Part shown: one piece after another, positions 1-59,190 of the stretch
Layout: every line of letters starts with the position of its first letter
Position numbering within the stretch: position 1 is the stretch's first letter
NCBI GenBank assembly: GCA_964017185.1
Contig: OZ024870.1
Span: 22,281,621 to 22,345,620 of the forward strand
Source: Rugalucina vietnamica
Taxonomy: Eukaryota > Mollusca > Bivalvia > Lucinida > Lucinidae
Length of the DNA stretch: 64,000 nt
Reading direction: 5' to 3'
Made by a program: the position numbers and the translations under genes
Notes under the pieces: generated by a model
Databases searched by the model: none
What the model saw: the letters and a program-made list of their open reading frames with translations, nothing else
Told to the model about the DNA's origin: nothing

Positions 1-2672
1 TTAGCCAAATTTCTTCTAAGGCACGATTTATCACTTTCTTAACATCGTTGCGGTTCAGTATTGACGTCATCGCGCTATTGCATCTATTTAATAAGCCAGT
101 TGAACCAGCCTAAGGAAATTGAAAGGCTCAAATCGTTAAATTGTTTTATTCAGAATATGTCAAAATGACATTTTTGTTCCTTTTTTCAAATTAAACTACA
201 AAGCACTATTTTAGAAGCATAGAGATAATTTAGAATCTTGATTTAATAATATCAAATTGAAGAACGTGTATGTTCAAATAAGGCTCTATTTACAATGTAG
301 CTATTCACTATTAAATAATTTGCTTTACTTTAAGATTCGCGCCGTTAGGCCCCACCTAATACTCATTGGCTGTTATGAATCAAAGCTCGCTTGTACAATA
401 GAGATGTCCGTGCAATGTATACCCCCTTAAACCTAAATCCTTTATAGTGAAACTGTGATGTACAATGGTATAAATTGTTTCTTCATTTGATCCACAAAAT
501 CGAGGCGGTTCAAACGTATACCCATAGTCAATGATATGAAGAAAAAAAATAAAGTATCAAAAGTCTTCAACTGAAATATGTAAGTACTTATTTTGTGATT
601 TTTGCTTTCAAAATTTGCTTTTTAGTTGTGAAAATGTGGCTCTACTTGCGAAGGTTCTTGGTCAAATGTGTTTTCTTTAAAATAAATGTTTCCTTTCGCA
701 CCTGTGCTTTAGAGCAACGGTGATGATCGGGGCCACGTAAAGTCGATTTAAGGGCTTTAGTTCATTTCCTTTTTGACCGTCCTGCTGTTAAGTATCTTTA
801 CGTTGACTGTTGCCCCCCTACGCCTATGTTGTGCACAACATCATTTGCTTTATTTTAAAGCTAACAATATAACCGCTAGGCTGGGGAAAGAGGTAGCCAT
901 TCAGCAAGTAAAGCCCGGTACGTTTAAACCTTTTGCAAGAGATACAACATAATTGACAGTGGCCAGTTCTGATTAGGACAATTATTGCTTGCTAAATGTT
1001 GTGTTACACTATATACACTCTAACGTGTCATTGCATTTAAAATGACATAATGTTTGTTTATTTGAAGAAATAAGAAGTGGCAAACCCCAAAGTCACGAAT
1101 AATACCATCTTTAAACAAACATTGGCAATAAAGCGTCAACTAAGGGATGGCTAATTTAGATTTATAGTTAATCTTGAGGCTGTCTAGGAACTGTATTGTT
1201 TATTAGACGAACTTTATTGCTGAATAATCGATAATTAAAGACAAGATGACTCCTACAACTGAATAAGCTCCCACCAACATGATATTTTTTTCATTATTTT
1301 GCTGACTGAGAAGACAGCAAAATAATGAAACCAACCAACCTGCGCAGCTACAAATAACAAGGGTTATAAAATAAATATTAGTGTACAGAAAGCTTTCCCT
1401 AATAAAAATAAAAAAAAAAAACAGTTGTTCATACGTCAAGTCATTTAAAGACATGCTTATCTGAATTCAATCAGGTTAAAGCCAAGGGCGATTCGTTGTG
1501 AGATAGCAGCTTTAGAAACTGGAAATCGAAATGCCGTATGAACTAAAATCGAAATTATAGTGATACAAAAATATCATTTTAAAAGTGCACAATCGGAATT
1601 TAATCAGCGCAGTTTTAGGAGCCAGCATGTTCTTAAAATCGAACAACCTTGTTTTCTGTGGTTTTGAACATTTTGATCAAAATTTGCAATTTCAGTTTTC
1701 ACGAACATCAGGCAACATTGTTTCACTAAACAAAAGAAACACGCAAACAGAATATAGTTTAATTTTATCTTCATGTTCTTAAGAATTGTGAGTCTTCAAA
1801 TGATAACAGAAGTTTCCATAAGTAAAAGGAAGTAATTAATCAAATGTGGCATGTTTTGAAATACCAATCAGAAACACCCATCTGAAGGTCGAAAAACGAC
1901 AAACAAAAACAAATTATTTTTTTCGCGTACGTATAAGTAGATAATAGCAGTAAGAAATGGCACGCTTAAAGGGACAATATAATTTTGTTTCTATAGCCAA
2001 GGTGGCCTTGCATGATCGCGAAACACTCCATGTAGAATACCCCCACATCAAATGATTTTTTTATCTAGAAGGTGATTATGGGGGTCATACATGTACCTGG
2101 ATGAGGCCATACAAAGAACAATAATCAATATGTACTTGATTTTAGTTACCCCTTAATTCGGCTCCTGAATAAAATGATAGTTATCCTGGCTTTCTTATCT
2201 GTGGTCATTAGGGTGGTATGCAATTCAAAATGTGTCTTTAAGCCAAGTTTGAAGGAGAAAGGACACAACTGTTTACCGAAGCCTTTGATTTATGGTTGAT
2301 ATATTTCGTTGCTCGTGTATGACAGTGTATTCAACTATATGAGCCGCGAGAAAACCGGTCTTCGGGGTTTCCGACCAGGTCTGACACAAACCGGCCTGTA
2401 CAGTCTCAAAAGCAGGATAGAAGCTTGAAATTTCGGATTTAAGAAGAAGAAGAGAAATTGTACTATTCTTGTAGCGAAAAACAAAGGCGCTGATCAGCTA
2501 CGCAGTTACTGCGAAGCTGATCTGCGCCTTTGTTTTGGCATATGCAATAATCCCGTTTTCTCACAACGCGGCTCATATATACTTTAATATTAAAGTTTGA
2601 TAGGGATCAAAAGTTTATTTTCATCTACTGGTCATACTGGTAATCTAACACCCATAATTTTCTGTAGATATA
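1..2672 (+). repeat. Segmental repeat block A, copy 1 (A1)
   Basis: This block is repeated almost base for base at 43043-45651 and, more diverged, at 53616-56270. The first roughly 210 aligned bases of copies 1 and 2 show four substitutions by eye. The window begins inside the block: copies 2 and 3 share about 150 further bases upstream. The match to copy 2 stops sharply near 2672. It holds family-M element M1 and a worn piece of palindromic family K near 405-540. Two small open frames (1203-1454 minus, 1585-1782 plus) lie inside; the first is frameshifted in copy 2, so no gene is called. Confidence 0.9.
2341..2574 (+). mobile_element. Palindromic MITE, family M, copy M1
   Basis: A 234-bp element starting GAGCCGCGAGAAAAC and ending GTTTTCTC...GCGGCTC, so the ends are imperfect inverted repeats. 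It is flanked by ATAT on both sides (2337-2340 and 2575-2578), read as a 4-bp target duplication. Its right half has a palindromic core in which GCTGATCAGC and GCGAAGCTGATC face each other between two AAAGGCG/CGCCTTT arms. There is no coding capacity. The same element sits at the same place in A2, so it inserted before that duplication. Confidence 0.85.
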
Positions 2673-2785
2673 TTATTATTCTTATTCTGTAGTATTTTCT
2701 GAAGTTTAACACAATACCCGGCACATTTTATTTGACATATTGTGTCGATTAAAAAGAAGTGTCTTGTTTTGTCAAGATATTATTT

Positions 2786-3205
2786 TTAATGCAAATATTT
2801 ATTGATCCGAGGAAATATGGAGGGAAGGGTCACATGGAGGGTCTGTCGATAGAGGGCGTGGTCTATCGTGCGAAAATGCCATCGCACATTTGATTGGCTG
2901 GCTGATTTCGTGCGCTGGTCACATGTACCTACGCAGATATTATCGCGGTTCTCATTGGTTGAAAAACCAACGCGAAGATATTGGAAAATTGCGAAGATAA
3001 TGCGCGAGTCGTTCGCAGTTTCTATTGGTTGAAAACCCATCGCGAAGATTTTGACAAAATGCGATGGTAACGCGAGTTCAGACTACTTCCTCATTGGCTG
3101 AAAAGTCCTCGCGCTAATTTCGCGAGGTAGTGCGTGGCCTACGACTGCGTATAGCGTGCGTGGGCAACGCACGGCGCGCGCGAATGCATGGACAACTTGC
3201 TAGCT
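2786..3205. promoter_or_regulatory. CpG-rich patch with phased inverted CCAAT motifs
   Basis: ATTGG (inverted CCAAT) occurs at 2893, 2954, 3024 and 3093, spaced 61, 70 and 69 bp, each followed by GTTGAAAA-like or GCTG-like sequence. The stretch is much richer in CG dinucleotides than its surroundings (GCGAAGAT, CGCGAG, GCGCGCGCG). It may be a promoter-type CpG island with NF-Y sites, or about four worn units of a 70-bp tandem repeat that happens to contain the motif. No downstream gene is recognisable on either strand, which favours the repeat reading. Confidence 0.4.
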
Positions 3206-3239
3206 ATCTCCACTGTACATAACCCCGTAAGGGTGTAAG

Positions 3240-3560
3240 GCTGGCTTAAGCTAGTATCACATTGACATGCGAATTCCTCGCGACTGTTTTGCGAATAAAG
3301 TCGCGAAACTGTCGTACGACATTCGTACGAACGTCACGCGTTTTGTTATATGTGTGGCGAACTATTCGCCAACTATTCACGAAATACATTTTAAGTTATA
3401 ATCATGTTTTACCATTTCATGCGAATTTATTTCCCACGAACATCTAGCTCAACAGTCGTACGACATTCGTGCGAGAGTCGCGAACCTGTCGCCGCGAAAT
3501 TGTGGGAATCTACAACGCGACAAGTTCACGACAATTTACCGATCGTAATCAAAGATGATC
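3240..3560. mobile_element. TCGTACGA/GTCGCG-rich element, probably non-autonomous DNA transposon
   Basis: Two similar clusters face each other across about 190 bp: GTCGTACGACATTCGTACGA near 3312 and GTCGTACGACATTCGTGCGA near 3454. They are accompanied by repeated TCGCGA, CGCGAA and TTCGCG words. Dense short CG-containing palindromes in otherwise AT-rich DNA resemble the subterminal motifs of non-autonomous DNA elements. Clear terminal inverted repeats and a target duplication were not found, so the limits are approximate. Confidence 0.4.
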
Positions 3561-5139
3561 TATTTGCATGTATTGAAACCAGATTTCTAACCTATCCTGG
3601 AAAATTTCAACATCCCACAAGGGTAGGTGAGCAATCTCTATGAGCCCTGACGACGACAGTCTTTGTATAAGCTTTTGTATGTTGTGAGTGCTGAAGTATA
3701 TTGTCCTTTGAAAACGCCTCACTATACATCGGTTATGCACAAAACTGGTTAAAAATTTAACTGATTTATAAAAACACATACAGGTATTATTGTGTATCGT
3801 AACATGAGAAACAATATTTGTTCATAAAGATTTGTTTACTTAATTGTTTGCTAATACTGTTTTCTTGATACGTATTTTTTTTCCCTAAGAAAACCTTAGG
3901 ACGGCTATAAAAAGTTTCTTTTTTTTATTAAACCAAACTATATCCGGTGATAGCGTACAAGAAAAGCAACATAAAAATGGGGACTTTCGTTTAATGCCGT
4001 TTAAGGCCCTAGGGTTTTTTACTGACGTCAAGCGTAAAGTGTTTAAAATACACGGACCTAGGATTACAGCGCCAAAAGTTAGTTGGTAATTTTAACACAA
4101 GTCTGTGCCTCTTTATTGTGTCAGAAAACTTTCGAATTCGTTTCATTTTACACGCAAAAATCAAAATTTTTTTCATAAACGTTAAAATGACGTAATTACC
4201 ACAGTTTTAGTGCAATTCACACTGGATGAAAAGTCCGATTTACGAATGCCTCAAACACAATTCAAACATTTGGAACCGCCAAAGTTTATTAGGGTTTCCA
4301 TACATTTACAATTGATTCGCGAGAATTTGCCTTGCATTTGCACATACGAAAACATAATGGTTTGACCTATTGCGGTCGTATCGCAAAGATCATAACTACC
4401 GCATTTTGCGTAAAATGCAAGAGACTTGGAAATCATATAAAAATTTCATCATTCACAAGGTTTTATCACATATAACAAAATTAACAAAATTTAAAAAAAT
4501 CACTACCTTTTAAACCTGCACATTTACGTATTAGTTTGCAGGCATTGAGTGTACACTGCGCATGCTAGCTCAACTTGGCATCGTAAAAGCTTGTAAAATG
4601 TTATCTTTGTGTATATCAAAAAATATTTCGGAAATACTGTTGTGCTGTAATATTTCAGGTACTTCACATTGTTTTCGCAAAGATGTATTCTTTTATCGCA
4701 TTTGGATGCATTGAAGTTGTGCTGCAAATGCATGCGTTTCTAAATAAAAAAGAGTATAGGAAAGAACGTTAAACGTGGACAAGACATATGTTTTGACGTG
4801 TTGTTTAGAACTAACCAAATGTAACTCTTTTCATTGATTTGAAAGGTACTCAAATGTTGAAAAACACGAGTAATACGGCACATTTTACATATATCCAATT
4901 GTTAATAAACAGTAACATTTGTGCGAGATTTTGTGATCGTAAATCGCAATAAATGCGTCAATTTGACATACAGTGCACTTCGGCAAAAGTTTATAAAATT
5001 CAATCTACGCAATGGATTTTCATTGAAAAAACGTACATAATTGCATATATTTGTATAAGCAGGTAAACACCAGTAAATGAGTAAGTTTGAATGCTTGCAA
5101 TTGGTTGTAGGTTTTGTTGTAATTTGGCCATGGATGTCT
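3561..5139. other. Unassigned AT-rich stretch
   Basis: No gene is visible. From about 4230 to 5100 the words TTTGCA, ATGCAAA and CGCAAAA recur on both strands, as they do at 15340-16080; this could be an old element with subterminal motifs. The 60-77-codon open frames here have no recognisable domains. Confidence 0.35.
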
Positions 5140-5347
5140 TTGGTTTGGTTGTAGTTTTACGTCCCGGTCAACAATTTTTCAGTCAGGCATGCCGGGACGG
5201 AGCCACAGCTTCCTGGGTAGTTAACCAGTACTTTGGGGAGCTTAAAGTGTCTTGCTGAGGGAAACACGAAATGAAGCTCGTGGATTCGAACCGAAGACCT
5301 CTAGATCCGAAGTTCGACGTTGTACCACTGAGCCACCGCGCTCCTCG
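5140..5347 (-). mobile_element. tRNA-derived SINE, minus strand (S1)
   Basis: Read on the minus strand it starts with a tRNA-like head: an A-box-like GCGGTGGCTCAGTGG at its right end and a B-box-like GGTTCGAATCC near 5285. The body shares CCCAGGAAGCTGTGGCTCC and the tail GACCGGGACGTAAAAC with S3. The head suits RNA polymerase III; the protein needed to move it would come from a LINE in trans. The A and B boxes carry a few changes, so this is an old copy. Confidence 0.8.
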
Positions 5348-5534
5348 TATAAAGCGTATAAACGTCTTTGGAAGTCTTTGTCTGAAAAGGAAAATGGAAC
5401 CTCACACGACGACGACTGTGCTTATATCGCAAAATCATTATTTTTGAATATTATAGCAATTTAAACTTATATTCTTATAATTTTTGTTAGTTTCCTTATT
5501 TTGTTATAAATATATCAACATAAATCACTTTGAA

Positions 5535-5541
5535 CTTGATG

Positions 5542-5573
<32 letters not shown>
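5535..5573 (+). repeat. (AAT)n microsatellite
   Basis: A run of AAT/ATA trinucleotides of roughly 13 units. Confidence 0.9.
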
Positions 5574-5669
5574 TATAAAATAAAATGATGCTAATAATAA
5601 CAATAAACAATGATAAGAGTGCTAATAAGTTTTTCCAGAAAAAATACGAAGTTCAACGGTGTTCAGTCT

Positions 5670-5703
<34 letters not shown>
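5670..5703 (+). repeat. Poly-T tract
   Basis: More than 30 consecutive T. It may be the A-tail of a minus-strand retroposon, but no retroposon body is recognisable beside it. The polyphenylalanine reading frame over it is an artefact. Confidence 0.9.
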
Positions 5704-6603
5704 CAAATCGCATCACCTTGATATAAAGTCATGTCATCAAAACGTCAAAAATTCAAATTTAATAATATTCTAACAAGTCGTTATCGTTTCTCCCATTGAA
5801 CCAAATGGGAACGCCAGTGTGCGAAAACAAACGATAATTTACCCTACAGCGTTATTGCGTGCGAAAGAGCGCGCTTATGTGACGTCGAACATTTACGTCC
5901 GAAGAGAATGAGTCCACTTGAAAACGCTGCAAAAATGTGAGTATTACTGTACTATTGGTCGTGTAAGAATCTAAGTAAGTTTTCTTATTCAACTGTTTAT
6001 TATCGTGACTAACGCGTGATGTTGTCGGGCAAATGCGATAATTCACTCCGGCTCCACCGTCGTGAATTAATACATCGAAATCTGCCCTCTAACATCGCCT
6101 GTCAATCGCAATAATTCACAGTAGATAAAATCATTTCTTAAATATTAATCATAATAGATATAGACAATTAAATTAGTTCTTTTTTTGCGAATTATTTGTA
6201 ATAGATTTTCTCTTTTTACGAGCGTTATAAGTACAAGTGATAGCCGCAAAAGATCCAATCGTGTTTGTACGTCTAAAAATCACAAAGTCCATCATCGTGA
6301 ATACAGAAATGTTAAATGGTATGATCCGCTGTGTTAGACGTTTTAAGATCAACTGCGAACAGTTTGATTCTGGGATATAAGCGAATCGTAGTATGTTCAA
6401 TCCGATGTGGGCGGTGCTTGATCATGGTTTTCATTCGTTCCGGTCTGGTATTTGATTAGTTCTCCTATTAGCATGATTAATGTAATTGAATTATGCAAGT
6501 TAATGTGGCTTTATGCAACGCAAAATGTTGCGTAATTAAAGATAAACTTATCAACTGCATATTTGGTCGCAGCATGTAAAAGTATCCCTTCATCTGTGAA
6601 AAG
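5704..6603. other. Unassigned stretch with CGATAATTCA-like words
   Basis: No gene is seen. Words such as GCGATAATTCA, CGCAATAATTCA and CGTGAATTA recur between about 5830 and 6120 on both strands, suggesting a worn DNA element. Limits cannot be fixed by eye. Confidence 0.3.
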
Positions 6604-6785
6604 AAGCCGCCGTGGCCTAGTGGCCCGGGCACTGGACTTGTATTCCAAGGGTCCTGAGGTCGATCCTAGACTTCTCCAATGTTCTGAATGACACTCTAAA
6701 TCGAGGCCCCGGTTCCATGTGACATTAGCTGTTGATTGGGACATGAAACACGAAGTCACTCAATCAATCCTTTACAAAAAAAATG
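6604..6785 (+). mobile_element. tRNA-derived SINE, plus strand (S2)
   Basis: The head contains GCCGTGGCCTAGTGG (A-box-like) and GAGGTCGATCCTAGAC (B-box-like). The body has GGCCCCGGTTCCATGTGACA, followed by TTAGCTGTTGATTGGGACAT, related to the tails of S4 and S8 (CAACAGCTA...GTCCCA). It ends near an A-rich run at 6776-6784. Confidence 0.75.
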
Positions 6786-6934
6786 TAATTTTCTTTGAGG
6801 CTTATTTCAACTGAAACTTACATTATCCCGCAAAAAAACAAACAAACAAAAAAATCAATAGATCTATTGGGAAAAAAAATGGGAAGACAAAATTAAATAA
6901 GATAATTTTTATGCCTCGTTCCACGAACATTCCG

Positions 6935-7345
6935 TGTACGTGACGTCCTTAGTTTCTTCACCAAAGTTCATACGACAAAATCCATGTTCAAATTGTGAAA
7001 CTCACGTGCCGTTTGACAATAGCGTTTTTATTTTGCCTTTTGAGTGCCAGTGTCATTTTCTAGTGTCAGGAAACAAAGTCCGTGTTGGCTATCATTTGTG
7101 TAAACGTGAAACGGTGTTCGAGCTGCACCTTATTTCTGAAATAATGCGTTACTATTTTCATGTCATTAAATATTTATCTAAACTCGTCGAATCGTATGCA
7201 GTATATTATTTTTGCTATTTATGACTTTGTGAAAAAAAAAAACAACAACAAACATTTGGCAACATTTGGTACACTTCGCGACTTCACGATTTCCAAAGTG
7301 TTGTCAGCGACTGAAGCCCTGCGTGGGACATTGTCTCTATACATA
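6935..7345 (+). repeat. Dispersed repeat G, copy 1
   Basis: This resembles 11800-12120 on the same strand: shared words include CCAGTGTCA, GGAAACAAA(G/C)TCCGTGT, GCTATCATTTGTGTAAACGT and the stretch around CACTT...TTTCC...GTTCTCGGCGAC. A further part of the same repeat seems to resume at about 7975-8060 (TCCGAACTGTAAAATTTACC against TCCGAAATGTTACTTTTACG in copy 2), with H1 and low-complexity DNA between. There is no coding signature. Confidence 0.6.
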
Positions 7346-7545
7346 GGCTACAGCATCTACTCTATACCCTCCAAAAATACCGGAACTGATGGATTACCCC
7401 TAAATATATTAGGAATTTTGAGCACATCCAAACCATGTGAAATTGCTAAAAACACTTAAATAGTGGACGACGACGACGGACGGACGCCGGAGTATGGCCA
7501 TCCTTTAAGCTCACCTTGTGAGCCTTCGGCTCGGGTGAGCTAAAA
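7346..7545 (-). mobile_element. Family H element, 5-prime end fragment, minus strand (H1)
   Basis: On the minus strand it opens with AGCTCACCCGAGCCGAAGG and a hairpin whose loop is CTTCGG, then a GTCCGTCC-rich stretch. That is the start seen at 60338 (H5), GAGCCAAAGGCTCAC followed by TCGTCCGTC. Only about 200 bp of the family is present and the remainder is missing or unrecognisable. Confidence 0.65.
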
Positions 7546-8246
7546 TATCCGCAAAAATCTCTTCTCCCATTTTGTTTTCTGAAAACCACAATAAATACCA
7601 AAATTTAAAATTTTGACCCTTAAGGAATAGGCACAGCCTATGTATAAAAAATGTTAGGTTTTTCCCCCCTCCCCCCCCACACACACTGGGAACTGATAGC
7701 GTTTGCAATTAATTATTCATGAATGCATGCCACCACACATGATAGGATGTATTGAAATTCGAAACATTTACATTAAACAGTGCCATATATTTAGGGGATA
7801 ACTGTATTTATTTATTTATTTATTTATTTATTTTTCATTTGGGGCGGTATATTGTTGGAAATTTTGTTTTACGGCGACTCACAGCTGTTCATAGCTCCAT
7901 GAACATCTGAAGAATCAAATAAATTTATTAAATATACTATCGCCAACTACGTTATTACATCAGACGCCGCGTTATTTTCTCTAGTGCATTAGAATTTCCG
8001 AAATTTGCTTATGTCCGAACTGTAAAATTTACCTGTGAGGTAGCCGCAGTTGGTTTGAAACGGCGTAAATATAATGCAGTTCTCATTAGAACAGCTACTT
8101 CACGTGATGCGCGGTCCTTTTTGCTTATGGTTATTGTCGGGACATAAATGTTTTGAAACTGCTTTGTTATACTTGATAGATGTTCGGCCCAGCTTGCATG
8201 AATACGAAGTTTATGGCTTATTAATTGCATCCGGTACATTTGTTGC
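7546..8246. other. Low-complexity and unassigned DNA
   Basis: Contains a C-rich run at 7662-7678, a (TTTA)n microsatellite at about 7806-7834, and at 7975-8060 a stretch resembling part of repeat G. No gene is supported. Confidence 0.5.
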
Positions 8247-8458
8247 TATGGGAAGCGCGGTAGCGCAGTGGCAGAGCGTCGGATTTCAGCGCCAGAGGTC
8301 GTGGGTTCGATCCTCACCGGCGGCACTGTGTTGTGTCCTTGAGCAAGGCACATTTACTTCCCATAGTACTGGTTAAACCCAGGAAGCAGTGGCTCCGTCC
8401 CGACATGACTGAAAAATTGTTGACTGGGACGTAAAGCCTCAACACAAACAAACAAACA
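8247..8458 (+). mobile_element. tRNA-derived SINE, plus strand (S3), best-preserved copy
   Basis: The head has a clear A box (TAGCGCAGTGG near 8261) and B box (GGGTTCGATCC near 8303), 30-35 bp apart as in a tRNA gene. The body follows: TTGAGCAAGGCACATTTACT, CCCAGGAAGCAGTGGCTCC, GTTGACTGGGACGTAAAGCC. It ends in a CAAA-type tail, (ACAA)n near 8440-8457. S1, S6 and S7 are minus-strand relatives. A possible short target duplication GTTGCT lies before the head and after the tail. The intact A and B boxes make it a plausible Pol III transcription unit. Confidence 0.88.
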
Positions 8459-8735
8459 GTAGTTGCTTGCTAACTTGTAAAAGGATGTCCCGATTTGGGT
8501 TAGCCTCGGTGAATAAAGTATACATATTGTAATTTTGCTTTGTTTACACACAGCGTTTCACGATGTATTTATGGAACTATAAACTGCATTTCAACAAGTT
8601 CATTAAGGTTTGGCATCGGATGTTTAGATTAAATAATAAAGTACGATTGCATTTTTTTCAATTAATAGGTATGTAAACTTCGAAATGTTCACTTCATCCA
8701 ATGAGGCTATTCCTAGGTCTTGCGATTCTGGATTT
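8459..8735. other. Unassigned AT-rich spacer
   Basis: Nothing recognisable. Confidence 0.5.
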
Positions 8736-8907
8736 TAGAGGTATTTAGGTATACCATACACAGGCTTGGCGGCCATCTTGGTCATGTTATCTTGACATTT
8801 TTAATAAATTGTTGTTTTCTCTTGGATAATTTGAATGGACAGACGCCGGGTCATGGGTATATACTGTAAGAGCTCACTTTGTGAGCCTTATGGAGCAAGT
8901 AAGCTAA
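8736..8907 (-). mobile_element. Family H element, truncated, minus strand (H2)
   Basis: Contains GGCGGCCATCTTGGTCATG, the reverse complement of the family's CATGACCAAGATGGCCGCC, then a rearranged GACAGACGCCGGGTCATGG and the terminal AGCTCACTTTGTGAGCC near 8870. The internal repeat units are absent, so it is an internally deleted copy. Confidence 0.7.
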
Positions 8908-9545
8908 AGATGACGTCATCGCCTGTTTAGTCTTTTGTTTTTAAATTGGTACTCTTACGGAAATCCGGCACTGCATTTTCGTGGTAGCTCTTAGGTCTCC
9001 CTCCCTGGGTTTTACAGTGCCTGGATTCTAGGTTTCCCCATGAACACAAGTCTCTGAGAGACAAAGGGGCAAACTGTGATAAACAAGATGGTGACCGTGC
9101 AGCTTGTCGTCTACCCCCACTCCCCGTGGGGGGGGGGGGGGTACTTACGAATGAAACTGGTATGTATGTGTCGCCCTGTGTCGAAAATAAGGGGGCTTTC
9201 AGGCTTTCAGCCCTTGCAACAAGACTGGCCGCTTGCTGCTTATAAGTATCAAATAATAGTTCTTGGATTGGTGTTGAGGGCCCGCATAGGCACAGAAATA
9301 AAATGCTTCTTTAAAATCAAGTTGATCTTAGCTTAGGGTCGCAAATTCAGGTCACAAAACATGCATTTAAAACATTAGAGAGTCATGGTTGCCAGTCTTA
9401 TTATGAACATGATATTGAATATTACACACGTGTATAATTTCGGCTAAGTTGTTGTCGATTTCAAGAGTACAATGCGGATATTACACATGTGTATACTTTC
9501 GACAAAGTTTTTTGTGGATTTCAAGAGTTAAATGCGGAGACAAAG
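8908..9545. other. Unassigned stretch with a two-copy 59-bp tandem repeat
   Basis: A homopolymer G run lies at about 9127-9140. At about 9419-9540 a 59-60-bp unit beginning TATTACACA(C/T)GTGTATA occurs twice head to tail (second copy from about 9478), each ending AATGCGGA. No gene is seen. Confidence 0.6.
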
Positions 9546-11137
9546 TGCGTCACCTTAATTAAGGTCGATCTTAACTTTAATGAAGCACATGACCAAGATG
9601 GCCGCCATGCCCATATATGTTAAAAACCACTCAAAAATCTTCTTCTCCAGAACCGGCGGGCCGATTTCCATGAAACTTGGTTTGAAGCATCCGGGACTCC
9701 AGTCCATCGTAGTTTGCGAAAATGATGACCTTGGGATGACCTTGACCTATTTTACGGCAAGGTCAATTTTAAAAACATTGTTTTTTACACTGGAAAAAGT
9801 GAAAACCATGGATTTTTGATAACTATTGCAGCCTGAGACCTGAAAAGTGGTAGATGCAGAGAACTAATGGATTAGATGAATCTCTTGACTTTGGCCAGTC
9901 TGTGGTCTATACACACTTTACAAAGATCTTCTCCACTGAAATCGTTTGGCCGATGAAAGCCAAATTTTATGTGGAGCATCCATGGGTAGGGGGAACGAAA
10001 GTTTGTTCGTGAAATCCGGGTCACATGACCAAGATGGCCGCCACACCCATATATGGTAAAAGCAACTCAAAAATCTTCTCTAGAACCAGTGGGCCGATTT
10101 CCATGAAACGAAAGTTTGATCGCGAAGTCTGGGTCACATGACCAAGATGGCCGTCATGCCTATATATGGTAAAAACCACTCAAAAATCTTTTTCTTCAGA
10201 ACCGATGGGCCGATTTCCATGAAACTTGGTATGTAGCATCGGGGACCCCAGCCCGTCATAGTTTGCGAAAATGATGACCTTGGGATGACCTTGACCTATT
10301 TTACATCAATGTCAATTTTGGAATTATAGGCTTTTACATGGGAAAAAGTGAAAACTAGGGATTTTTTGAAAACTATTGCAGCCTGTGACCTGAAAAGTGG
10401 TAGATGCAGAGAACTAATGAAGTAGATGAAGGTATGTAATTAATTTAGGTCAAGGTCATCTCTTGACCTTGGCCCGTCTGTTGTCTATACACACTTTTCA
10501 AATATATTCTTCTCTGAAACCGCTTGGCAAATGAAAGCCAAATTTTATGTGGAGCCTCCATGGGTAGGGGGAATGAAAGTTTGTTCGTGAAATCCGGGTC
10601 ACATGACCAAGATGGCCGCCACGCCCATATATGGTAAAAGCAACTCAAAAATCTTCTCTAGAACCAGTGGGCCGATTTCCATGAAACTTGGTATGTAGCA
10701 TTGGGGACACCAGCCCGTCATAGTTTGCGAAAATGATGACCCTGGGATGATCTTGGCCTGTTTTACGTCAAGGTCGATTTTGGAAACATAGGCTTTTACA
10801 TAGGAAAAAGTGAAAATAAAGGATGTTTTGAAAACTATTGCAGCCTGAGACCTGAAAAGTGGTAGATGCAGAGAACTAATGATGTAGATGAAGGTATGTA
10901 ATTAATTTAGGTCAAGGTCATCACTTGACCTTGGCCTGTCTGTTGTCCATACACACTTTATAAAGATTTTCACTGAAACCGCCTAGCAAATGAAAGCCAA
11001 ATTTTATGTGGAGCCTCCATGGGTAGGGAGAATGAAAGTTTGTTCGTGAAATACGGGTCACATGACCAAGATGGCCGCTATGCCCATATATGGTAAAACC
11101 TCTCAGGTGAGCTACAGGACCCTTGGTCCTCTTGTTC
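9546..11137 (+). repeat. Family H tandem array (H3)
   Basis: A tandem array of a unit of about 460 bp. The marker CATGACCAAGATGGCCG occurs at 9588, 10024, 10137, 10602 and 11061, spaced 436, 113, 465 and 459 bp, so the second unit is cut to 113 bp. Each full unit contains, in order, ACTCAAAAATCTTC, GGGCCGATTTCCATGAAAC, GGGATGACCTTGACCT, TTTTACATGGGAAAAAGTG-like sequence, GGTAGATGCAGAGAACTAAT, GTCAAGGTCATCTCTTGACC and TTTTATGTGGAGC. The array ends with GGTGAGCTACAGGACCCTTGG and a GGACC/GGTCC palindrome at about 11109-11133. The hairpin start seen in H5 is missing. Confidence 0.9.
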
Positions 11138-11627
11138 TAAAATAGCAACGCTTTTAGGCATTGCTTTTGGGTTGGTATTTTAAGTTCAAATGTAACTGTT
11201 CCTTGCCTTTCATACTTTGTAAATGTCGAACATCAAATGGTCAGAAAAAGACTGTTTTGAATTTTCATCCGAAGACGCCGTTTTATGAACTGCAGTGCCA
11301 GTCGAAAAAATCTTACAAAATGCCACACGCCACAAACGTGAAAAGGATCAATTTCGCACTGACTTTTTAATATACTCAACTACTAAAGAAAATTGGCACT
11401 TTCTGTTTTTGTCCTTCTGGAAAGGTACCAATATTAGATTTTGTAGTATGACTTTCTGTTTTTCCTTTGAAGTTTTTATAACATTAAATCCAATACAAGT
11501 CAATATGAAAAGAGGCGGGCCCACATATTATTACAAAGCAAAGAGGCGGGATGAAAGCCGTACAATAACTTCCTGATATTGGAAGATACAGTATGGATCT
11601 GCCAATTTGTGTTGTGTCATACTACAA
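11138..11627. other. Unassigned spacer
   Basis: Two overlapping 69- and 93-codon open frames lie here but show no domain and no composition shift. Nothing else is recognisable. Confidence 0.45.
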
Positions 11628-11724: not shown

Positions 11725-11799
11725 TTAAAGCAAACGTTCATTGAGTAACAAGAGATCAAAGAGTTGTCTAGGAGAAACATTACTCTTAAATCTTTTAAT

Positions 11800-12315: not shown

Positions 12316-12448
12316 GTATGTCTTCAGTAATTTTTGAAAAAAAGAAACAACATTTTCACGTCTAGAATGCAAAAAACAATGCTGACAAAAGAGCATTTTC
12401 AAATTTTGCACTTTTTCGTTGCAACGTTTGATATCAGATGGCTGGCGT

Positions 12449-19700: not shown

Positions 19701-19740
19701 CTGCGTTCATTTGCAGTATTTGATCCCGGGTGCACATTTA

Positions 19741-49330: not shown

Positions 49331-49827
49331 TTAGTTCCTTACCACACTCTGCATGTTCCACAGCAAGTTGCTGTATCGCTTTCCAAGCCGTTCAATTAGA
49401 AGATAATTTATTCCGCTCCGTTAAAAGACACAGTCTTTGCATTCTGGAATATGCGTATCGGGAAATATAGGTTTTATTTTTGAATAACTTTGAAATAACA
49501 TTGCTGGCCACAGCTGTTCAAAGAGCCCCATCTACCGTTTCTAAGGTTTTGTTTAAAGACCTGTAAACTCCTAGAAAGACTATCGACCAAAACTAATAAG
49601 TTCCCCCTGCCCAGGTAGTTTGTTTGTGTAGAGAACTAGCAAATCCTAGATTAGTTGCCGTCCAAGGCTAATGAGCCCCATTCGTACCGCATGACAACAG
49701 GTAGCACTGATTACATGTTACAGGAGCGGTTAATCTGACCTGACTAACATGAAGCGGATGGTAGTCGCAATGCGGAATCACAGCACTTTCCAGTAAGCCA
49801 TTTTGTTTGTCTAGTAAGGGTTGAGCC
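49331..49827. other. Unassigned spacer
   Basis: No supported feature. Confidence 0.4.
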
Positions 49828-49976
49828 TACAATCGTTTGACACACATCCCCAGATCATAACAGACCCTCCATTCAGTTATCTGAATGTTCATTTAGGTAT
49901 ATGTATTTCTTTGTCGCGTACGACCATCTGTCTTATGCAGGAGAAACCTGCTTTCGTCAGACCAATGCACTTTTCT
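49828..49976 (+). repeat. Repeat block E, copy 2
   Basis: See 38709-38860. The stretch TCTTATGCAGGAGAAACCTG is present only here; it contains a CAGG/CCTG micro-palindrome and partly repeats its neighbour. Confidence 0.8.
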
Positions 49977-50390
49977 CAAAAATCTCATATTCCAATCTCG
50001 GCTTATACTTCATACATACAGTGTTACATCTCATCTCAGCTCAACTTACTCAGCTCATCATGCTCAGCACATAGGGACAAAAAGTATGCATATTTTGGCT
50101 GATAGTTCGGGCTTACAGCTTACCGTAATTATTCTGTGGACCGTTATATTCCTTATAAGCCTTTTTATGTATATTGAAGATACTTATACCATACGGGATA
50201 ATCAAAGATGTAAGTTGAGTAGGGTAAGTTGTTAAAGTTGCATTTAATATAACAAATAGAAGCTGATGTGTAGGACGAACTATTCATGGATACTAAACAA
50301 TGTAAGTTGAGTCGGATGAGTTATAATAGTTAGCATATAGGTTGTGGAACATACTTAGGATATCATACTTTATAATATGTCTTAATGTTT

Positions 50391-51090
50391 AAGTTAAGTT
50401 CGAAGAGTTCAGTAAGTTGAGTAACCTAAGTTGAATGTTAAGTTCGATAAGTAGGGAAAGTTGCATGCTGAGTTCGCTGAGTTGGATAAGTTAAGGAATA
50501 AGTTCGATGAGTTGGATAAGTTGAACAGTATGTTCGATGAGTTGGATAAGTTGTAAGCTGAGTTGGGTAAGTTGCATAAGTTGAACAGTAAGTTCGATGA
50601 GTTGGATAAGTTATACGCTGAGTTGCATGAGTTTGATAAGTTGCATGGTAAGTTGGATGAGTTACATAAGTTATACGCTGAGTTCGATGAGTTGGATAAG
50701 TTGCATGCTGAGTTCGATGAGTTGCATAAGTTATACGCTGAGTTGGGTAAGCTACATAAGTTGAACAGTTAAGTTCGATAAGTAGGGTAAGTTGCATGCT
50801 GAGTTCGCTGAGTTGGATAAGTTAAAGAATAAGTTCGATGAGTTGGATAAGTTGAACAGTAAATTCGATGAGATGGATGAGTGTAATAAGTTGCATGCTG
50901 AGTTGGATGAAATGGATAAGTTATACGCTGAGTTCAATGAGTTGGATAAGTTGCATGCTGAGTTCGATGAGTTGCATAAGTTGAACTATAAGTTCTTTAA
51001 GTTCGATAAGTTGAACAGTAAGTTGGATGAGTTGGATAAGTTGTAAGCTGAGTTGGGTAAGTTGCATATGTTGAACAGTAAGTTCGATAG
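50391..51090 (+). repeat. 15-bp-based minisatellite with a 331-bp higher-order repeat
   Basis: Built of near-repeats of GAGTTGGATAAGTTG and variants (GAGTTCGATGAGTTG, TGCATGCTGAGTT, GAACAGTAAGTT). A longer unit starting AGTTCGATAAGTAGGG at 50441 recurs at 50772, a 331-bp period (22 x 15 + 1). Looser copies of the same words extend left to about 50205. Because units are multiples of three, plus and minus strands both stay open, with pentapeptide repeats such as DKLHA-EFDEL on plus and TYPTHRT on minus. No start context, signal or flanking exon supports a protein. Confidence 0.9.
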
Positions 51091-51287
51091 CTATGATTGT
51101 CCCAAAATTTTTGGCCCATACAAAATACATATTTGGCTTCGTACTTCATACTCCGTGTCCCGAAATTAAACGCTCTTATAAACACAGGACAAATAATCAG
51201 ATGTGCATTTCTTCAAAGTAAAACAGTATGGACACATGCCTGGGCACATTTTGGGACCCGGAGTATGAAGTACCTGCCCCAATCACT
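51091..51287. other. Short inverted repeat beside the minisatellite
   Basis: GTACTTCATACTCCGTGTCC (about 51140) faces GGACCCGGAGTATGAAGTAC (about 51253), about 95 bp apart. It could form a hairpin or be the ends of a tiny element. It has no counterpart in block D1. Confidence 0.6.
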
Positions 51288-52085
51288 GGCACCAGAACAA
51301 GCACACCGCTTTATGTTTGTGGGAACGTTAACCCATTCATGACGAATGGAATCACCCACCGTTATCATTTGGGTGAGTCCACTTTCATTCTTGGGGACAT
51401 CAGGTGTGATTTTATATATATATATTTTTTTTCGATAAAATTTCTCTATGTAAACAGAATAGCTCCAGATGGGACGCCGCGTTCTGCGGCGTCACATCTG
51501 GGACTATAGTGTTTGCCTATGTCCCATAAAAAGGACGCCAGGCTTATATGAGTTAAGCCATAAACTAAATAAACCAACGCACACAGAAGTTTTTGAAAAT
51601 ATGCGTTGATTTGTAATTATAGCGATTGTTTTTTGTTTTTTATATAGGATGAATATGCAATTTAGAAAGTGGCTTTCTCTTCCTGATCTATTTTCATTTG
51701 AGCCGCGTCATGAGTAAACCGGATTTTTGCCTACGCAAAATCAAAGGCGCAGATCAGCTGTGCAGTACATGTAGCTGTTTAGATTATCAGCGCCTCTGAT
51801 TTCGCTACTCGGATAGTAGCTCTTCTTTTAAATCCAAAATTTCAAGATTTTAGCTTCTTCTGTGACTGTACAAGCCAGTTTGTGTCACACCAAATACCGG
51901 TTTACTCGCGTCGAGATTTTTAAAAATCTTACACTTTCAGTCTTTCCGCAGACAATTCCATTTCATGTCTGCGACATGACAAATTACTTTTGTGAAACAA
52001 ATTAAGCTTTTCAAATCTGAACTGACTGCATTTTCTGCAAATTAATTAAATTTACATGATGCAGTATCAACAAAAAGAAGTTTAA
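51288..52085 (+). repeat. Repeat block D, copy 2, carrying MITE M5
   Basis: Collinear with 38880-39475 but with about 220 bp of extra sequence at about 51330-51545. That extra part contains GGACGCCGC...GCGGCGTC (about 51471-51494), a hairpin. It lacks M4 and has M5. Confidence 0.8.
51700..51915 (-). mobile_element. Palindromic MITE, family M, copy M5
   Basis: Minus-strand copy: GAGCCGCG at the left, a worn right end (CGCGTCGAG), with ATTT on both sides. The core GCGCAGATCAGCTGTGCAGT and TTATCAGCGCCT is more diverged than in M1-M4. It is absent from block D1 at the matching place (39303). Confidence 0.75.
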
Positions 52086-53383: not shown

Positions 53384-54002
53384 AATGCTATCCGTTTCAA
53401 GTCATGTACATCCTAAATATTACCTGATTTATTGAATATGAAAAAAAAAACATTGATAGTGAATAGTTAGGATATCGTCAAAGTCGTTGTCTTGACAATC
53501 TGCAGACGGGCAAACAGCGGTTGATTTAAAAGCTACTAGATGCCTGTGGAAAGTAACAAATTAGGCACTAATCGTGTTTGCTGTTTTCTTGCCATCACGT
53601 CTGTATAAACAAGATTAGCCAAATTTCTTCTAAGGTTTTTAACATCGTTGAGGTTCAGTATTGACGCCATCGCGACATTGCATCTTTTAAATAAGCCAGT
53701 TGCACCGGCCTAAGGAAATTGAAAGGCTTAAATCGTTAAACTGTTTTATTCAGAATATGTCAAAATGACATTTTTTCCTATGTTTAAGTTTAACTACAAA
53801 TCACATTTTTCGAACCAAAGACGTGTCTTAAGAATAATATCAAACTGCAGACAGTGTATGCTGAAATAAAGTCATATAAACAGGAGTCCAAGTAATTATT
53901 GTCTTTATGTCAGTATTTCTTTGTAATGCTGTTTGTTTTCATCCTTTGTATTTGTAAGCTTATATGCATCTGACAGATCATCTGACTACTGGTAAATTAC
54001 TT

Positions 54003-54225
54003 AAGTCTGAGCCTGCCCAGGAAAAGTGGTTCGTCAAGCCATCCATACCTGTACCTATAAGCCTCGGTGGCTTACTTGTGTGGTAATTTCTGAAGCACTT
54101 TTTGGATGTTATGACATCCTTATTTTGGGTAAATGTCCAATAAAATGGAGACAACGTCCCGACATGACATTAACTTTAAATTGGGACGTTAAGCTTCAAT
54201 TCAAACAAACAAAAACAAATCAAAC
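54003..54225 (+). mobile_element. SINE, plus strand, headless (S9)
   Basis: Shares GTCTGAGCCTGCCCAGGAAA, CTGAAGCACTTTTTGGATGT and AAATGGAGACAACGTCCCGA with S8, ending TTGGGACGTTAAGCTTCAAT and (CAAA)n. The tRNA head is lost: it begins at the S8 body. Confidence 0.75.
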
Positions 54226-54718
54226 AGGTAGGCTTCTAAAGGAGCTAAAGTGTACCACTGTTTATTCGAATTATGACCCCTACTAATGCCCTACTAATGA
54301 TCCAGAAATAAAAGGGCTGCCATAATGAAGTGACTATCTCATCTCTGCAGGGGGTTATAGCCCTAAAGGATGATATACGTGGTACCGCTCTTTATTGGTT
54401 TTATGATCCCGTGCAGTAAAACTGCCTCCCTCTTAAATCAATATTGAGTTTTCTTTTTTCTTTCGTTTTGGTCTCTACCCATATTCAGAGACATTGTCAG
54501 GCCACCAGTTTGTCTAGCGTCCTGTTCCTAATCAGCGCACAGCTCAATAGATAAGATAGTATTCCAAGCCTTTTAAGAGCAACAGAGGATGAGGGTTCCG
54601 TAATTGTAATAGTTTGAGGGCTGTAGTAACAATCTAATTTGACTGTCAAAGACGGTTCCTGCTTTTACTAATCTTTACATAGTTACATGTAAGTATGCCT
54701 ACGCCTCTGTTGTGCATT

Positions 54719-54988
54719 ACGAAAACTTGCCCATACAATAAACATAGATTTTTTTAGCTTTAAAAATTGAAAATTTTCAGCAGAAAAAAAATTGAAATTT
54801 TCCTTATTTTTGCTCAAAACATAGATTGTGGGTACACGTTAGAACCGTCTCGCCGAGGCGTTCTAACGAGTACCCACAATCTATATTTTGGAGCAAAAAT
54901 AAGAAAAATAGGTGTACCCCTGCATACCCCAGTTTTACTATATAAAAGTGGGGTTTTAGGGGGTATACATTGCACGGACATGTTTTCA
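54719..54988 (+). mobile_element. Palindromic TIR element, family K, copy K3
   Basis: Ends ACGAAAACTTGCCCATACAA and ATTGCACGGACATGTTTTC. Central palindrome GTTAGAACCGTCTCGCCGAG then GCGTTCTAAC, one base lost in the right arm. Inserted in A3 between GTGCATTAC and ATGATGTGCC; A1 and A2 have an unbroken GTGCACAACATCATTTGC there. Confidence 0.88.
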
Positions 54989-56394
54989 TGATGTGCCTTA
55001 TTTTGAAGTTAACCGGATGAACATTTCGATTAGTAAAGAGAATGTCATTTGCTCTTCAGCAGGTAAAATCGGGTACATTATTTGTTTTTTCACGAATTCT
55101 GATTACGGCAATTATTGCTTACTAAATGTAACACAAGTTGTATTAGAATGTATACACACACTATCGTGTCATTGCATAATGACGTAATGTTTGTTTTCCT
55201 TGAAGAAATTAGAAGTGGCAAACCCAAGAGTCACGAATAATACCATCTTTAAACAAACATTGGCAATAAAACGTAATCTAAGGGATGGCTAATTTAGATT
55301 TATAGTTAATCTGGAGGTTTTCTAGGAACTGTATTGTTTACTATTAGGCAAACTTTATTGCTGGATAATCGATAATTAAAGACAAGCTGACTCCTACAAC
55401 TGAATAAGTTGCTCCCGGTCACATGATAGTTGGCTTCATTATTTTTCGAAACGACAATTATACTCGAACACAAGTCAGGGTATGAATAAGCCAGGGTATG
55501 AAATATATGCCATATATTTTAGAGTAAAGAAATTTTTCAATAAAACAACATGTAATCATGTGCACAGTCATTTTAAGACATGTTTATCTGATTTTAAAAT
55601 GTGCACGTTAAGCCACTGACGATTCACTGAGAGATAGCAAATTTAGAATGTCAACAGAAACGGGAAATCGAAATGCCGAATAAACTAACATCTAAATTAT
55701 GCTGCTATTATTAGAATTAACCATTTTGAAAAGTGCATTCTCGCAGCTTGATCAGCATATTTAGGACATTTAGGAGCCATATTTACTTTATAAATACTTA
55801 CACCTCTTTCTTCTAAGGCTTTGAACATTCCGATCATGGTTTGCAATGTCATTCCACAAAAAAAAAAATAATTAAAAACAAATTTGTTTCAATAAACAAA
55901 AGAAACACGCAAACAGAATATAGTTTGATTTTATCTTCATGATCTTAAGAATATGAGTCTTATAGTGGAAGCAGAAGTTTCCATAAGAAAAAAGGAAGTA
56001 ATTAATCAAAATGTGGCATTTTTGAAATACAAATCAGAAACACCCATCTGAAGGACGAAAAACAACTTACAAAAACATAGTGAAGCATTTGTATAAGTAT
56101 TAAATGATTGAAAAAGCAGTTCAATATAAATTTATGACATTTAAGAATTGGCATATTTAGTAATGTCTGGGGAAAAATGGAGGACAAAATTGTTTACAAA
56201 ATACTTTCATTTACGAATAATATAGCGATTGATATTTGCTTGGTTGAGTATGACAGTGTATTCAAGGATAAATTCTATTGTAATTTGCAGAATAAGGGGA
56301 GCTAACGTGTTCCTGTCTTAGAATTCCTTTATAGGAAACGTGTTTCAGGTTGAAAAACTTAAATCTCCGTAAATATGTTTGTAATGATGCTTTT

Positions 56395-56510
56395 ATTTTA
56401 CTTAAAAATGCATAAAATTCCAACAGCCCGCCTTTCATGTTTGTCGTATTTCTGATTTTTCAGGTCGTCCAAACAAGTGTTGTTCTACAAAAGCTGCTCA
56501 AACCTGCATC
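56395..56510 (+). repeat. Segmental repeat block B, copy 3, left piece
   Basis: TTCTACAAAAGCTGC.CA.AC and flanking words match B1 around 34555-34625. The match is broken at 56510 by K4 and other elements and seems to resume at 58960. Confidence 0.7.
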
Positions 56511-56743
56511 GGGAAAACATGTCCGCGTAATGTTTACCCCCTTAAACCCCACTTTTATACAGTAAAACTGGGGTATGCAGGGGTATACCTATTTTTTCTT
56601 ATTTTTGCTCCAAAACATAGATTGTGGGTACCCACAATCTATGTTTTGAGCAAAAATAAGAAAAATATCAAATTTTTTTCCACCGAAAATTTTCATTTTT
56701 TACAACTTTAAAAATCTCTGTATATTACATGGGCATGTTTTCG
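56511..56743 (-). mobile_element. Palindromic TIR element, family K, copy K4 (core-shortened)
   Basis: Family ends GGAAAACATGTCCGCGTAAT and ATTACATGGGCATGTTTTCG. The central part is only ACATAGATTGTGGGTACCCA then CAATCTATGT: the GTTAGAACCGCC arms have dropped out symmetrically, leaving a clean short palindrome. Inserted within block B3. Confidence 0.88.
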
Positions 56744-57021
56744 TAATGGATAAACCTGATTTATATTCTGTTAAAAGTTGATATAAGATTTTAAATACAT
56801 GTATGTAGGACTCACAACTAGGTTGGGTCCCATACGAGGCCAATTCTCCCACAACCGGGCCCATCCCACAAACAGGCCGAAAACTCTGACGTCATCCTAC
56901 AAACGGGGTCAAGTTACACCAAACAAGTCGCCGCATGAGCATTATTGCAACACCAACGGACATCTACGGGAGCTGTATTCCGTGATCATTCAACAGCCTT
57001 CTACCTTATATGGTCCTTTTT

Positions 57022-57832
57022 TATACCCCGCCACTTAACAAAGTGCGGGGTATTATGTTATACCCTCCAACAAAATTTTCGTTCGAGTGTCCGTCCGTCC
57101 GTCCGTCCGTCTGTCCGTCCGTCCGTCCGTCCGTCCGTCCGTCCGTCCGTCAGCGTTTCGTTTCCGGGCTCTATCTTGAGCATTTATTGACCGATTTTCT
57201 TCAAACTTTGTATAGGAGTTCATATCAGGAAGGAGTGGTTTGGGATTGAAGATGGGTAAATTTCGTCAAATAAGTACAGAGTTATGGCCCTTGATTTACG
57301 TGAAAATTTTGTTTCCGGGCTCTATCTTGAGTATTTATTGACCGATTTTCTTCAAATTTTGTATAGGAGTTCATACTATGAAGGAGTGGTCAAGGATTGA
57401 AGATGGGTAAATTTCGTCAAATAAGTACAGAGTTATGGCCCTTGATTGACGTGAAAATTTTGTTTCCAGGCTCTATCTTGAGCATTTATTGACCGATTTT
57501 CTTCAAACTTTGTATAGGAGTTCATATCAGGAAGGAGTGGTTTGGGATTGAAAATGAATAAATTTTGTTAAATAATTACAGAGTTATGGCCCATGATTTA
57601 CATTAAAATTTCGTTTCCTGCCTCTGTTTTGTGCATTTATAAACCAATTTTCTTCAAACTTTGTATAAAAGTTCAAATCAGGAAGTAGTGGTTTGGGATT
57701 GAAGATGGGTAAATTTTATCAAAGTATACAGAGTTATGGTCCTTCATTTATGACAAAATTTTGTTCTGCTCTTTATCCTTAGAATTTATTGACAAACATT
57801 TTTGCTTAATTAAATTTGCGTGGCGGGGTATC
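57022..57832 (+). mobile_element. TIR element T with 152-bp internal tandem repeats
   Basis: Left terminal ATACCCCGCCACTTAACAAA then GTGCGGGGTAT (itself a hairpin) and right terminal GTGGCGGGGTAT. Between them are a (GTCC)n tract (57099-57150) and about four tandem units of some 152 bp. Each unit has CTCTATCTTGAGCATTTATT, GACCGATTTTCTTCAAACTT, AGGAGTTCATATCAGGAAGG and ACAGAGTTATGGCCCTTGAT; the last units are worn. The plan (terminal hairpin, GTCC-rich tract, tandem units, terminus) matches families H and I despite unrelated unit sequence. Confidence 0.85.
57099..57152 (+). repeat. (GTCC)n microsatellite
   Basis: About 13 units of CCGT/GTCC with one interruption. It gives serially repeated SVRP reading frames in more than one frame, which are artefacts. 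Confidence 0.95.
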
Positions 57833-58455
57833 ATGCATGCCTGCAGCGCTTTTATTTTCGTTTATGATGCTTCGCAGTAATAAAATCATCATACATTGAA
57901 TTTTGAGTTGGGGCTTTGTATGTTAAACACCTAAACGTAAATGAGCCGAAACTATTCACATGCTAGATTCAGTGAGTTTTAGTTGAGAAACTCATGTATG
58001 ATTCGTCGTGATTGCTCCACTAGCGACGAGAATCCGCACACTATTTGTCTATTACGGATGTTTAAAATACACATGCTTCTCCGAAATTACACAGACTGAG
58101 TAGATTCTATATTTAAGTCTAAATATTGAGTCAGTTTTATTGTTCGCACATTTGTGGAAATACGTGCTCGTATTCACCCTCGCCCCTCATGCAACATGGA
58201 ATGTGTCGGTATGTGGTAGCGTACCCAGGGTATGGTTGCATTTCGATTTTACCTTCGTCGTATTGACGCGGGGGAACGGAACGCTTAAACATGATTGCAA
58301 TCAGCCCATTTGTGAGAATGACGTTACACAGTCGGTCTAGTTGTGGGGAAAATCGGCCCGTTTGTGGGAATCGGTGATGATATCTGCCTAGTTGTGGGAA
58401 TCGGCCAAGTTGTGGGAATCAGGAATGTTTGGTGGAATCGGCCTAGTTATGAGTC

Positions 58456-58959
58456 TTACAAATATAAAATAAACGATTTCCAAATACTGATGAACCTCAA
58501 ATACACATCTAAAGAAATAAAGCAAAATGCATAAAACAAACATCATGCACTTAGTCCAATGTTTGCATTAGTCGAAGTTTGAGAGTCAGAGACTCCAAAG
58601 AATTGGACTGTGACTTCCTAAATCAGAATGTAGGAAGTCAGTGACATCAAATATCACAACGTGCTACTTTTCAAAATGTATTTTTACATAAATATGGGAC
58701 AAACTGTAAATAGAAATGCCATTTTCACAATCATATAATTTATGGTAAAAATGGCTACTTTTCTTATAAATAATAAATGTCAGGCTCAGTTCGATTCGAT
58801 ACGAAGCTGTCGGGAAATTATGCGACTTCCTGCTTTTCAAGCTTAGTGCAAGCACTGCCTACTGTAGTCAGGAAAAATAAATAAAAGTAGTATGTTAGAA
58901 TATTGGTTCAGTGGGTATTTATTTTTTTGCATATGAATGACCTTTGTTATATAATGTTC
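58456..58959. other. Unassigned spacer
   Basis: No supported feature. Confidence 0.4.
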
Positions 58960-59190
58960 TTACATAAATCTACAATCTAGGTTAACAAGATGTAACACCA
59001 GAGCATTGACACCGACCTTTTATGCAGAGAAGGAGACGTTACCCGAAACTCCCCATAGAATATCATTAACTTAGTATAACATCGTCTCTTTAAATCCGCC
59101 AAGAGACAGTGTAATACTGCTCTAGTATCATATTAAGCCCCATCTGTTTAATGCAAAGCTCGACTTCCCTATATTAAAATGGGACAGTAT
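58960..59190 (+). repeat. Segmental repeat block B, copy 3, right piece
   Basis: GTTCTTACATAAATCTAC.AT, ACACCGACCTTTTATGCA.AG, CCAAGAGACAGTGTAATACT and TATTAAGCCCCATCTGTTTA match 34875-35130. Clearly more diverged than B1 is from B2. Confidence 0.8.

Follow-up and report, generated by a model that had tools for sequence, protein, structure and literature searches.

A 31.4-kb segment in place of the centre of a palindromic element in a duplicated region of the bivalve Rugalucina vietnamica

In this study, we analyzed a window of 64,000 bases from the bivalve Rugalucina vietnamica (assembly GCA_964017185.1, contig OZ024870.1, positions 22,281,621 to 22,345,620), in which two sequence blocks, A and B, occur in three related copies. 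All positions given below are those of the window. Between A and B lie 31,432 bp in copy 1 (segment X), 391 bp in copy 2 and 15 bp in copy 3. A ends and B starts with sequences that are inverted repeats of one another, and in copy 2 these form, together with the 391 bp between them, a 784-bp imperfect palindrome, here called the long inverted repeat (LIR). Of the left arm of this element, only the outer 93 bp are left in copy 1, whose right arm is nearly complete; the 391 bp are gone and X is present. Since the palindrome is complete in copy 2, where the 391 bp complete the arm, copy 2 represents the older state, and since the same 391 bp are missing from copy 1, X is a replacement and not a simple insertion. 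This reading of a replacement within the palindrome stands irrespective of whether copies 1 and 2 are paralogues or alleles. If the assembly is right, the event is real and well resolved, and it is of a known kind.

An earlier note on this DNA had described A1 and B1 as former neighbours, now 31.4 kb apart, and this is borne out by our comparison. It had also reported that the interval shows no matching inverted ends, which does not hold, as these ends sit inside blocks A and B. Matching inverted ends may therefore hide inside flanking homology blocks, where they are missed when junctions alone are inspected. With a sister copy and an outgroup copy next to it, what had been an unexplained 31-kb split becomes a polarised event, and a single window shows the older state as well as the lost and gained bases.

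The split palindromic element

Aligned to its own reverse complement, the LIR matches end to end (835 columns, 61% identity, 150 bits). The DNA fold of 45555-46340 gave a z value of -6.55 with 0/20 shuffles equally stable, and in its long inverted arms that fold back the element resembles foldback-like elements. Aligned to the inner right arm in reverse complement, the 391 bp of copy 2 gave a score of 97. None of 2000 dinucleotide shuffles (maximum 70) and none of 4774 window segments taken outside both element sites (maximum 52) reached this score. The terminal 391 bp of X scored 28 (left end) and 29 (right end) against the palindrome arm and show no continuation of it. The innermost pair of 32 bp (45877-45908/46010-46041) is weaker and was equalled by 10 of 5000 simple shuffles. 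The centre of the LIR (~45950) lies in the 391 bp, which extend 299 bp to the left of it and 92 bp to the right; the bases lost from copy 1 thus include the centre, as would be expected of palindrome-centred breakage. We also considered the 391 bp as random filler and rejected this, with the palindrome arm and centre lying within them.

A core of 21 bases from the arm was found at 2592-2612 (+), 34377-34397 (-), 45570-45590 (+) and 46310-46330 (-), which is four window matches, all in copies 1 and 2, versus 0.03 expected; these odds are overstated, as the core was drawn from these very sites and the copy 1/2 pairs are duplicates. The outer-arm 21-mer gave 0 matches in viral_contigs.

The left arm of the LIR is directly adjoined by a palindromic element resembling a miniature inverted-repeat transposable element (MITE). 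Self-comparison revealed relatives of this family at 38278-38512, 39002-39212 and 51696-51891, the first two of which form the strongest inverted repeat of the window scan (275 bits). Opposite positions 45318-46348 of copy 2, copy 3 has only 15 bp, and this span corresponds to the MITE plus the LIR within ~10 bp; as the flanks of copies 2 and 3 are only ~65% alike, the edges in this empty-site comparison are good to ~10 bp. The stretch 56070-56285 of copy 3 was aligned both to the end of A2, with a score of 79, and to the right arm, with a score of 34. The former score was reached by 18 of 3000 random window segments, with those overlapping copy 3 kept, and the latter by 1805 of 3000, which is chance level. 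Based on these comparisons, the insertion of the MITE and the LIR probably postdates the split from copy 3, although the edges are approximate and loss in copy 3 is possible. A target-site duplication of the LIR was not identifiable by eye, with the adjoining MITE blurring the left edge.

Duplication history of the A and B blocks

The window contains only A, C, G and T with no N, and its GC content ranges between 32 and 42% across 2-kb steps. Self-comparison and Pfam scans indicate DNA of eukaryotic appearance, carrying a long interspersed nuclear element (LINE) plus numerous MITE-like repeats. Blocks were compared by self-comparison and local matches, with differences counted at gap-free sites and distances given according to the Kimura two-parameter model (K2P). 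The coordinates of all features are listed in Table 1.

Table 1. Features of the window discussed in the text
Feature	Position	Strand	Remarks
Block A, copy 1	1..2673	+	98.39% to 43043-45651; cut by window edge
Split LIR left arm, copy 1: outer 93 bp	2581..2673		Within A1; 2592 maps to 45570
X, in place of the 391 bp of copy 2	2674..34105	.	31,432 bp; ends of homology
Block B, copy 1	34106..35212	+	98.09% to 46043-47144
Split LIR right arm (most of it), copy 1	34106..34409		Start of B1; inverted-arm comparisons
Abrupt end of copy 1/copy 2 homology	35212..35213	.	Predicted head-to-tail junction or assembler join
E1-D1, upstream part of unit copy 2	38690..39471	+	Collinear with 49809-52083; divergence far above that of copies 1/2
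Block A, copy 2, with left extension common to copy 3	42820..45651	+	Homology to copies 1 and 3
Palindromic MITE-like element abutting LIR left arm	45320..45558 (~2342-2580 in copy 1)	+	Left edge placed by eye
LIR of copy 2, complete (784 bp)	45559..46342	.	Self-reverse-complement alignment, DNA fold
391 bp absent from copy 1: inner left arm, spacer, inner right arm	45652..46042	.	Alignment score 97
Block B, copy 2	46043..47144	+	Homology; end of the old unit near 47066
E2-D2, upstream part of unit copy 3	49809..52083	+	Collinear with 38690-39471
Block A, copy 3 (old paralogue, other repeats interrupt)	53395..56270	+	Matches to copy 2
Block B, copy 3 (old paralogue)	56286..59188	+	A MITE and 151-bp tandem repeats interrupt it

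Between copies 1 and 2, 42 of 2609 aligned sites are substituted in block A (1-2673 versus 43043-45651; K2P 0.016) and 21 of 1100 sites differ in block B (34106-35212 versus 46043-47144; K2P 0.019). Pooled over both blocks, the 63/3709 differing sites (~1.7%) are spread evenly along the length. The gaps measure 1-38 bp, and there is no large insertion in any of these blocks. With 3709 aligned sites, the pair reaches the length and identity expected of a tandem segmental duplication (at least 1 kb at an identity of at least 90%). Copy 3 matches the related blocks with 65-86% identity in the segments 53395-53882, 55095-56270, 56286-56517 and 58891-59188 (K2P 0.16 to 0.48 by segment); its final A match ends at 56270 and its first B match begins at 56286. 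Relative to copy 3, A2 extends leftward to ~42820, beyond the stretch that is the partner of A1. Using copy 3 as outgroup, 13 derived changes were assigned to copy 1 and 13 to copy 2, with 3 unresolved, and copies 1 and 2 have evolved alike.

Self-comparison and pairwise alignment confirm the three related A/B copies described in the earlier note, and likewise its view that copies 1 and 2 are far closer to each other (1.6-1.9%) than either is to copy 3. Of its A-B spacings, the 31.4 kb of copy 1 agrees with our value, the 394 bp of copy 2 is corrected to 391 bp, and the approximately 100 bp of copy 3 has to be replaced by 15 bp. A protein-coding reason for the duplication was considered and rejected: among the open reading frames (ORFs) of copy 2 with at least 35 amino acids, 17/59 matched copy 3 by tblastn, several of them with stops and overlapping frames on both strands, and no coding region was therefore recognised.

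Further segments, E and D, occur as collinear pairs upstream of copies 2 and 3. In four of the five paired segments, two of which overlap by 10 bp, 53 of 365 pooled sites differ (~15%); in the fifth, at 38690, the count is 28/152. The pooled value is significantly higher than that for A and B of copies 1 and 2 (63/3709; p = 2e-26) and lower than the copy 2/copy 3 level (398/1821, pooling four of five segments, as the one left out, with 33/119, overlaps another; p = 0.001), yet it is nearer to the latter. Being close to this old level of divergence, E and D can be assigned to the old duplication, in which they stand before A, giving a unit E-D-A-B. An arrangement A-B-E-D, with E1-D1 grouped with copy 1 as proposed before, is not supported, the pairs being ~15% apart versus ~1.7% for A and B. 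Another pair of blocks, C1 and C2, is inverted and only 85% identical and therefore lends no support to a recent shared unit.

The homology of copies 1 and 2 halts at 35212 and 47144. Beyond these points, 35213-43042 and 47145-64000 share no BLAST match longer than 40 bp above 91% identity; two shorter MITE matches, of 39 bp, have identities of 92 and 95%. The simplest reading is that 35212/35213 is a head-to-tail junction, with the second copy starting at 35213, in which case a copy of 35213-43042 is predicted to the left of the window. A 122-bp palindrome (47162-47283) starts 18 bp past 47144, where the recent duplication ends in copy 2.

Replacement scenario and its alternatives

The scenario that we favour, with a probability of about 0.55 for the whole of it, combines an old and a recent duplication with a subsequent loss of the LIR centre and the joining of X. 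An old head-to-tail duplication of the unit E-D-A-B would have given rise to copies 2 and 3. In the line leading to copies 1 and 2, the palindromic MITE and, adjacent to it, the foldback-like LIR would then have been gained between A and B, before a recent duplication (~1.7% divergence) produced these two copies, which we infer to be true paralogues rather than alleles. The element of copy 1, or of the chromosome supplying it, may next have suffered a double-strand break at the centre of its hairpin or cruciform, the break ends being trimmed unequally, by ~299 and 92 bp, with 391 bp lost. Finally, 31.4 kb of other DNA, presumably arriving mostly as one block, would have been joined into the gap, the halves of the element now flanking it. 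A single event of this type would account for the observed structure of copy 1.

Breakage at such structures is documented, and in human cases a break at the palindrome centre is accompanied by an asymmetric deletion. When inverted repeats lie close together, they form hairpins or cruciforms that are then cut, as proposed for elements with long terminal inverted repeats (TIRs) by the authors of the work on Galileo (PMC2775673); human deletion breakpoints are enriched in inverted repeats (PMC4319165), and palindromic AT-rich repeats act as breakage sites (PMC4255720). The event described here resembles these latter systems in that the centre of a palindrome is gone and other DNA is joined in its place, whereas it differs in being a single event in an imperfect palindrome. 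Similar to Galileo of Drosophila, the LIR has long inverted arms with a spacer, no coding capacity was recognised in the short copy, it appears to be without counterpart at the paralogous site, and it is the site of a rearrangement (PMC2775673). However, its arms of ~340 bp are 61% alike over the whole element, there is no further copy within the window, and no target duplication was identified. Furthermore, the Galileo inversion resulted from ectopic recombination between two copies (PMC2775673), while here one copy is split. The motif GTAGTAC, given as the target consensus of Galileo (PMC2775673), is found at the outer edge of the right arm (46333-46339 and 34400-34406), with no clear partner on the left.

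Several points speak against the favoured scenario. The 34 clusters of inverted repeats span ~12.5% of the window, and a break inside one of them is therefore only mildly surprising. A score of 72 was obtained for the two outer arms of copy 2 against each other, but 2 of 2903 random pairs scored higher, and the first 50 bp of the 391 bp taken alone were equalled by 4.1% of 20,000 window segments. A global MAFFT alignment placed copy 3 opposite the right arm, where we followed the local matches instead. Only the right end of the head-to-tail duplication (35212/47144) is visible, its left half being outside the window. For X itself, piecemeal growth after a first replacement is possible, and the LINE at 25043-30213 could be younger than the duplication. 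Finally, copies 1 and 2 may be alleles.

According to this last explanation, the assembler laid two alleles end to end, producing a heterotype false duplication in which X is a hemizygous 31-kb variant. We consider this a serious possibility, at somewhat below even odds. The divergence of copies 1 and 2 is similar to the mean heterozygosity of 1.73% in one mussel (PMC7653742), a value used as a yardstick only, and the abrupt stops of homology at 35212 and 47144 are also in line with joined alleles. The earlier note was right to raise the risk of haplotypes joined by mis-assembly. As in known heterotype false duplications, one sequence carries two stretches, copies 1 and 2, that are nearly identical and diverge about as much as alleles do; assembly gaps are the usual, though not constant, mark of such errors (PMC9516828), but the window shows neither a gap between the copies nor any N. 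Moreover, alleles would require a second large allelic difference directly after B, and copy 3 points to tandem duplication at this locus. In its size class, X resembles the hemizygous stretches of up to 30 kb reported for the mussel, as does the divergence at single-nucleotide level (PMC7653742); by comparison, no host gene was recognised in X. If copies 1 and 2 were alleles, the locus would be a worked example of a large hemizygous segment starting at a palindromic element.

The remaining explanations concern X itself. Of the alternatives left by the earlier note, many insertions or a large rearrangement, a rearrangement of the replacement type is favoured, as the 391 bp are missing and a pile-up of simple insertions would have left them in place. 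X does carry the LINE, satellite-like arrays (9586-11105) and other repeats, as separate transposon insertions into copy 1 after the duplication would predict. Nonetheless, such a build-up is unlikely considering that neither the remainder of A1 and B1 nor their copy 2 partners carry a large insertion, and that X contains a tandem duplication of 850 bp (30768-31617/31626-32477; 31/848 differences, 96.3% gap-free identity) that is more diverged than A and B (63/3709; p = 0.0007). This divergence suggests that X held older DNA on arrival. It is no proof of en-bloc arrival, as the tandem duplication may have come within its host repeat, which is a further point against the favoured scenario.

The whole of 2581-34409 (31.8 kb) could also be a giant TIR transposon, with the 784-bp element of copy 2 as its internally deleted derivative, and inverted ends of the same outer sequence indeed bound both forms. 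However, the left arm of copy 1 is cut at 93 bp, the innermost right arm is missing, and X abuts truncated arms on both sides. As complete arms would be expected at either end of a giant TIR transposon, X is not regarded as its original interior. No transposase or integrase family was detected by Pfam in the scanned ORFs and six-frame pieces of X, and we regard this explanation as very improbable. Less probable still is an ancestral order A-X-B with separate losses of X from copies 2 and 3: copy 3 is also without sequence at this point, but the 391 bp of copy 2 include a matching palindrome arm and are not filler, and copy 3 would require an independent deletion with nested ends.

In a more far-reaching reading, which we regard as improbable, the loop of a small foldback element would have been swapped in place for 31 kb of other DNA, leaving a 31.8-kb composite with outer inverted ends that might be mobilised as a unit. 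Short palindromic elements of this genome would then serve for the landing and capture of large segments that vary in presence or absence.

Content of the 31.4-kb segment and further repeats

Among the ORFs of at least 70 amino acids (n = 150), Pfam scans at the ORF level covered 111 as a set and 4 ORFs of the LINE. Six-frame pieces, with stops replaced by the letter X, covered 2601-24502 and 30301-33302, while 24503-30300 and 33303-34105 were scanned via ORFs only. Within X, these scans yielded the LINE and otherwise weak matches. The LINE (25043-30213) is near full-length, with endonuclease and reverse transcriptase above the Pfam cut-off and a RING-like zinc finger below it, and is lightly broken by few stops and a frameshift. 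Its decay was tried as a clock for X and dropped; by a rough estimate, these few lesions would fit an age at or below that of the duplication.

Re-scanning 9 of the 111 ORFs resulted in two matches under the cut-off, zf-RVT at 29713-30213 (E 0.0055) and, after the LINE, Exo_endo_phos_2 at 30321-30716 (E 0.0025), with the other seven giving no match. The ORFs of the tandem duplication (30768-32477) presumably resemble a LINE reverse transcriptase; three of them were tested and had no Pfam match. In the ORF set, eight families gave weak matches to one ORF each (1/111; E 0.0004 to 0.0085) and, in the six-frame pieces, four families did so with E 0.025 to 0.05; all of these were treated as chance or unplaced. 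Rfam gave 0 matches. Comparison of the two ends of X revealed neither a terminal inverted repeat nor a direct repeat (scores of 41 and 45, below the 95% points of the null at 51 and 53). Its right end lies in a self-complementary AT-rich repeat zone (33408-34093), whereas the left end is in no such span.

Satellite-like arrays related to that in X at 9586-11105 were also found at 40194-40745, 60419-62046 and 63225-63993. They are dispersed in both orientations, with a mutual match of 65-90%. Another palindromic MITE-like family of ~280 bp is present at 36792-37087, 53108-53388, 54714-54993 and 56507-56748, three of these copies lying within 3.7 kb around copy 3. In addition, a 30-bp tandem repeat at 50427-51088 contains open frames with short KL.AEFDELD-like repeats.

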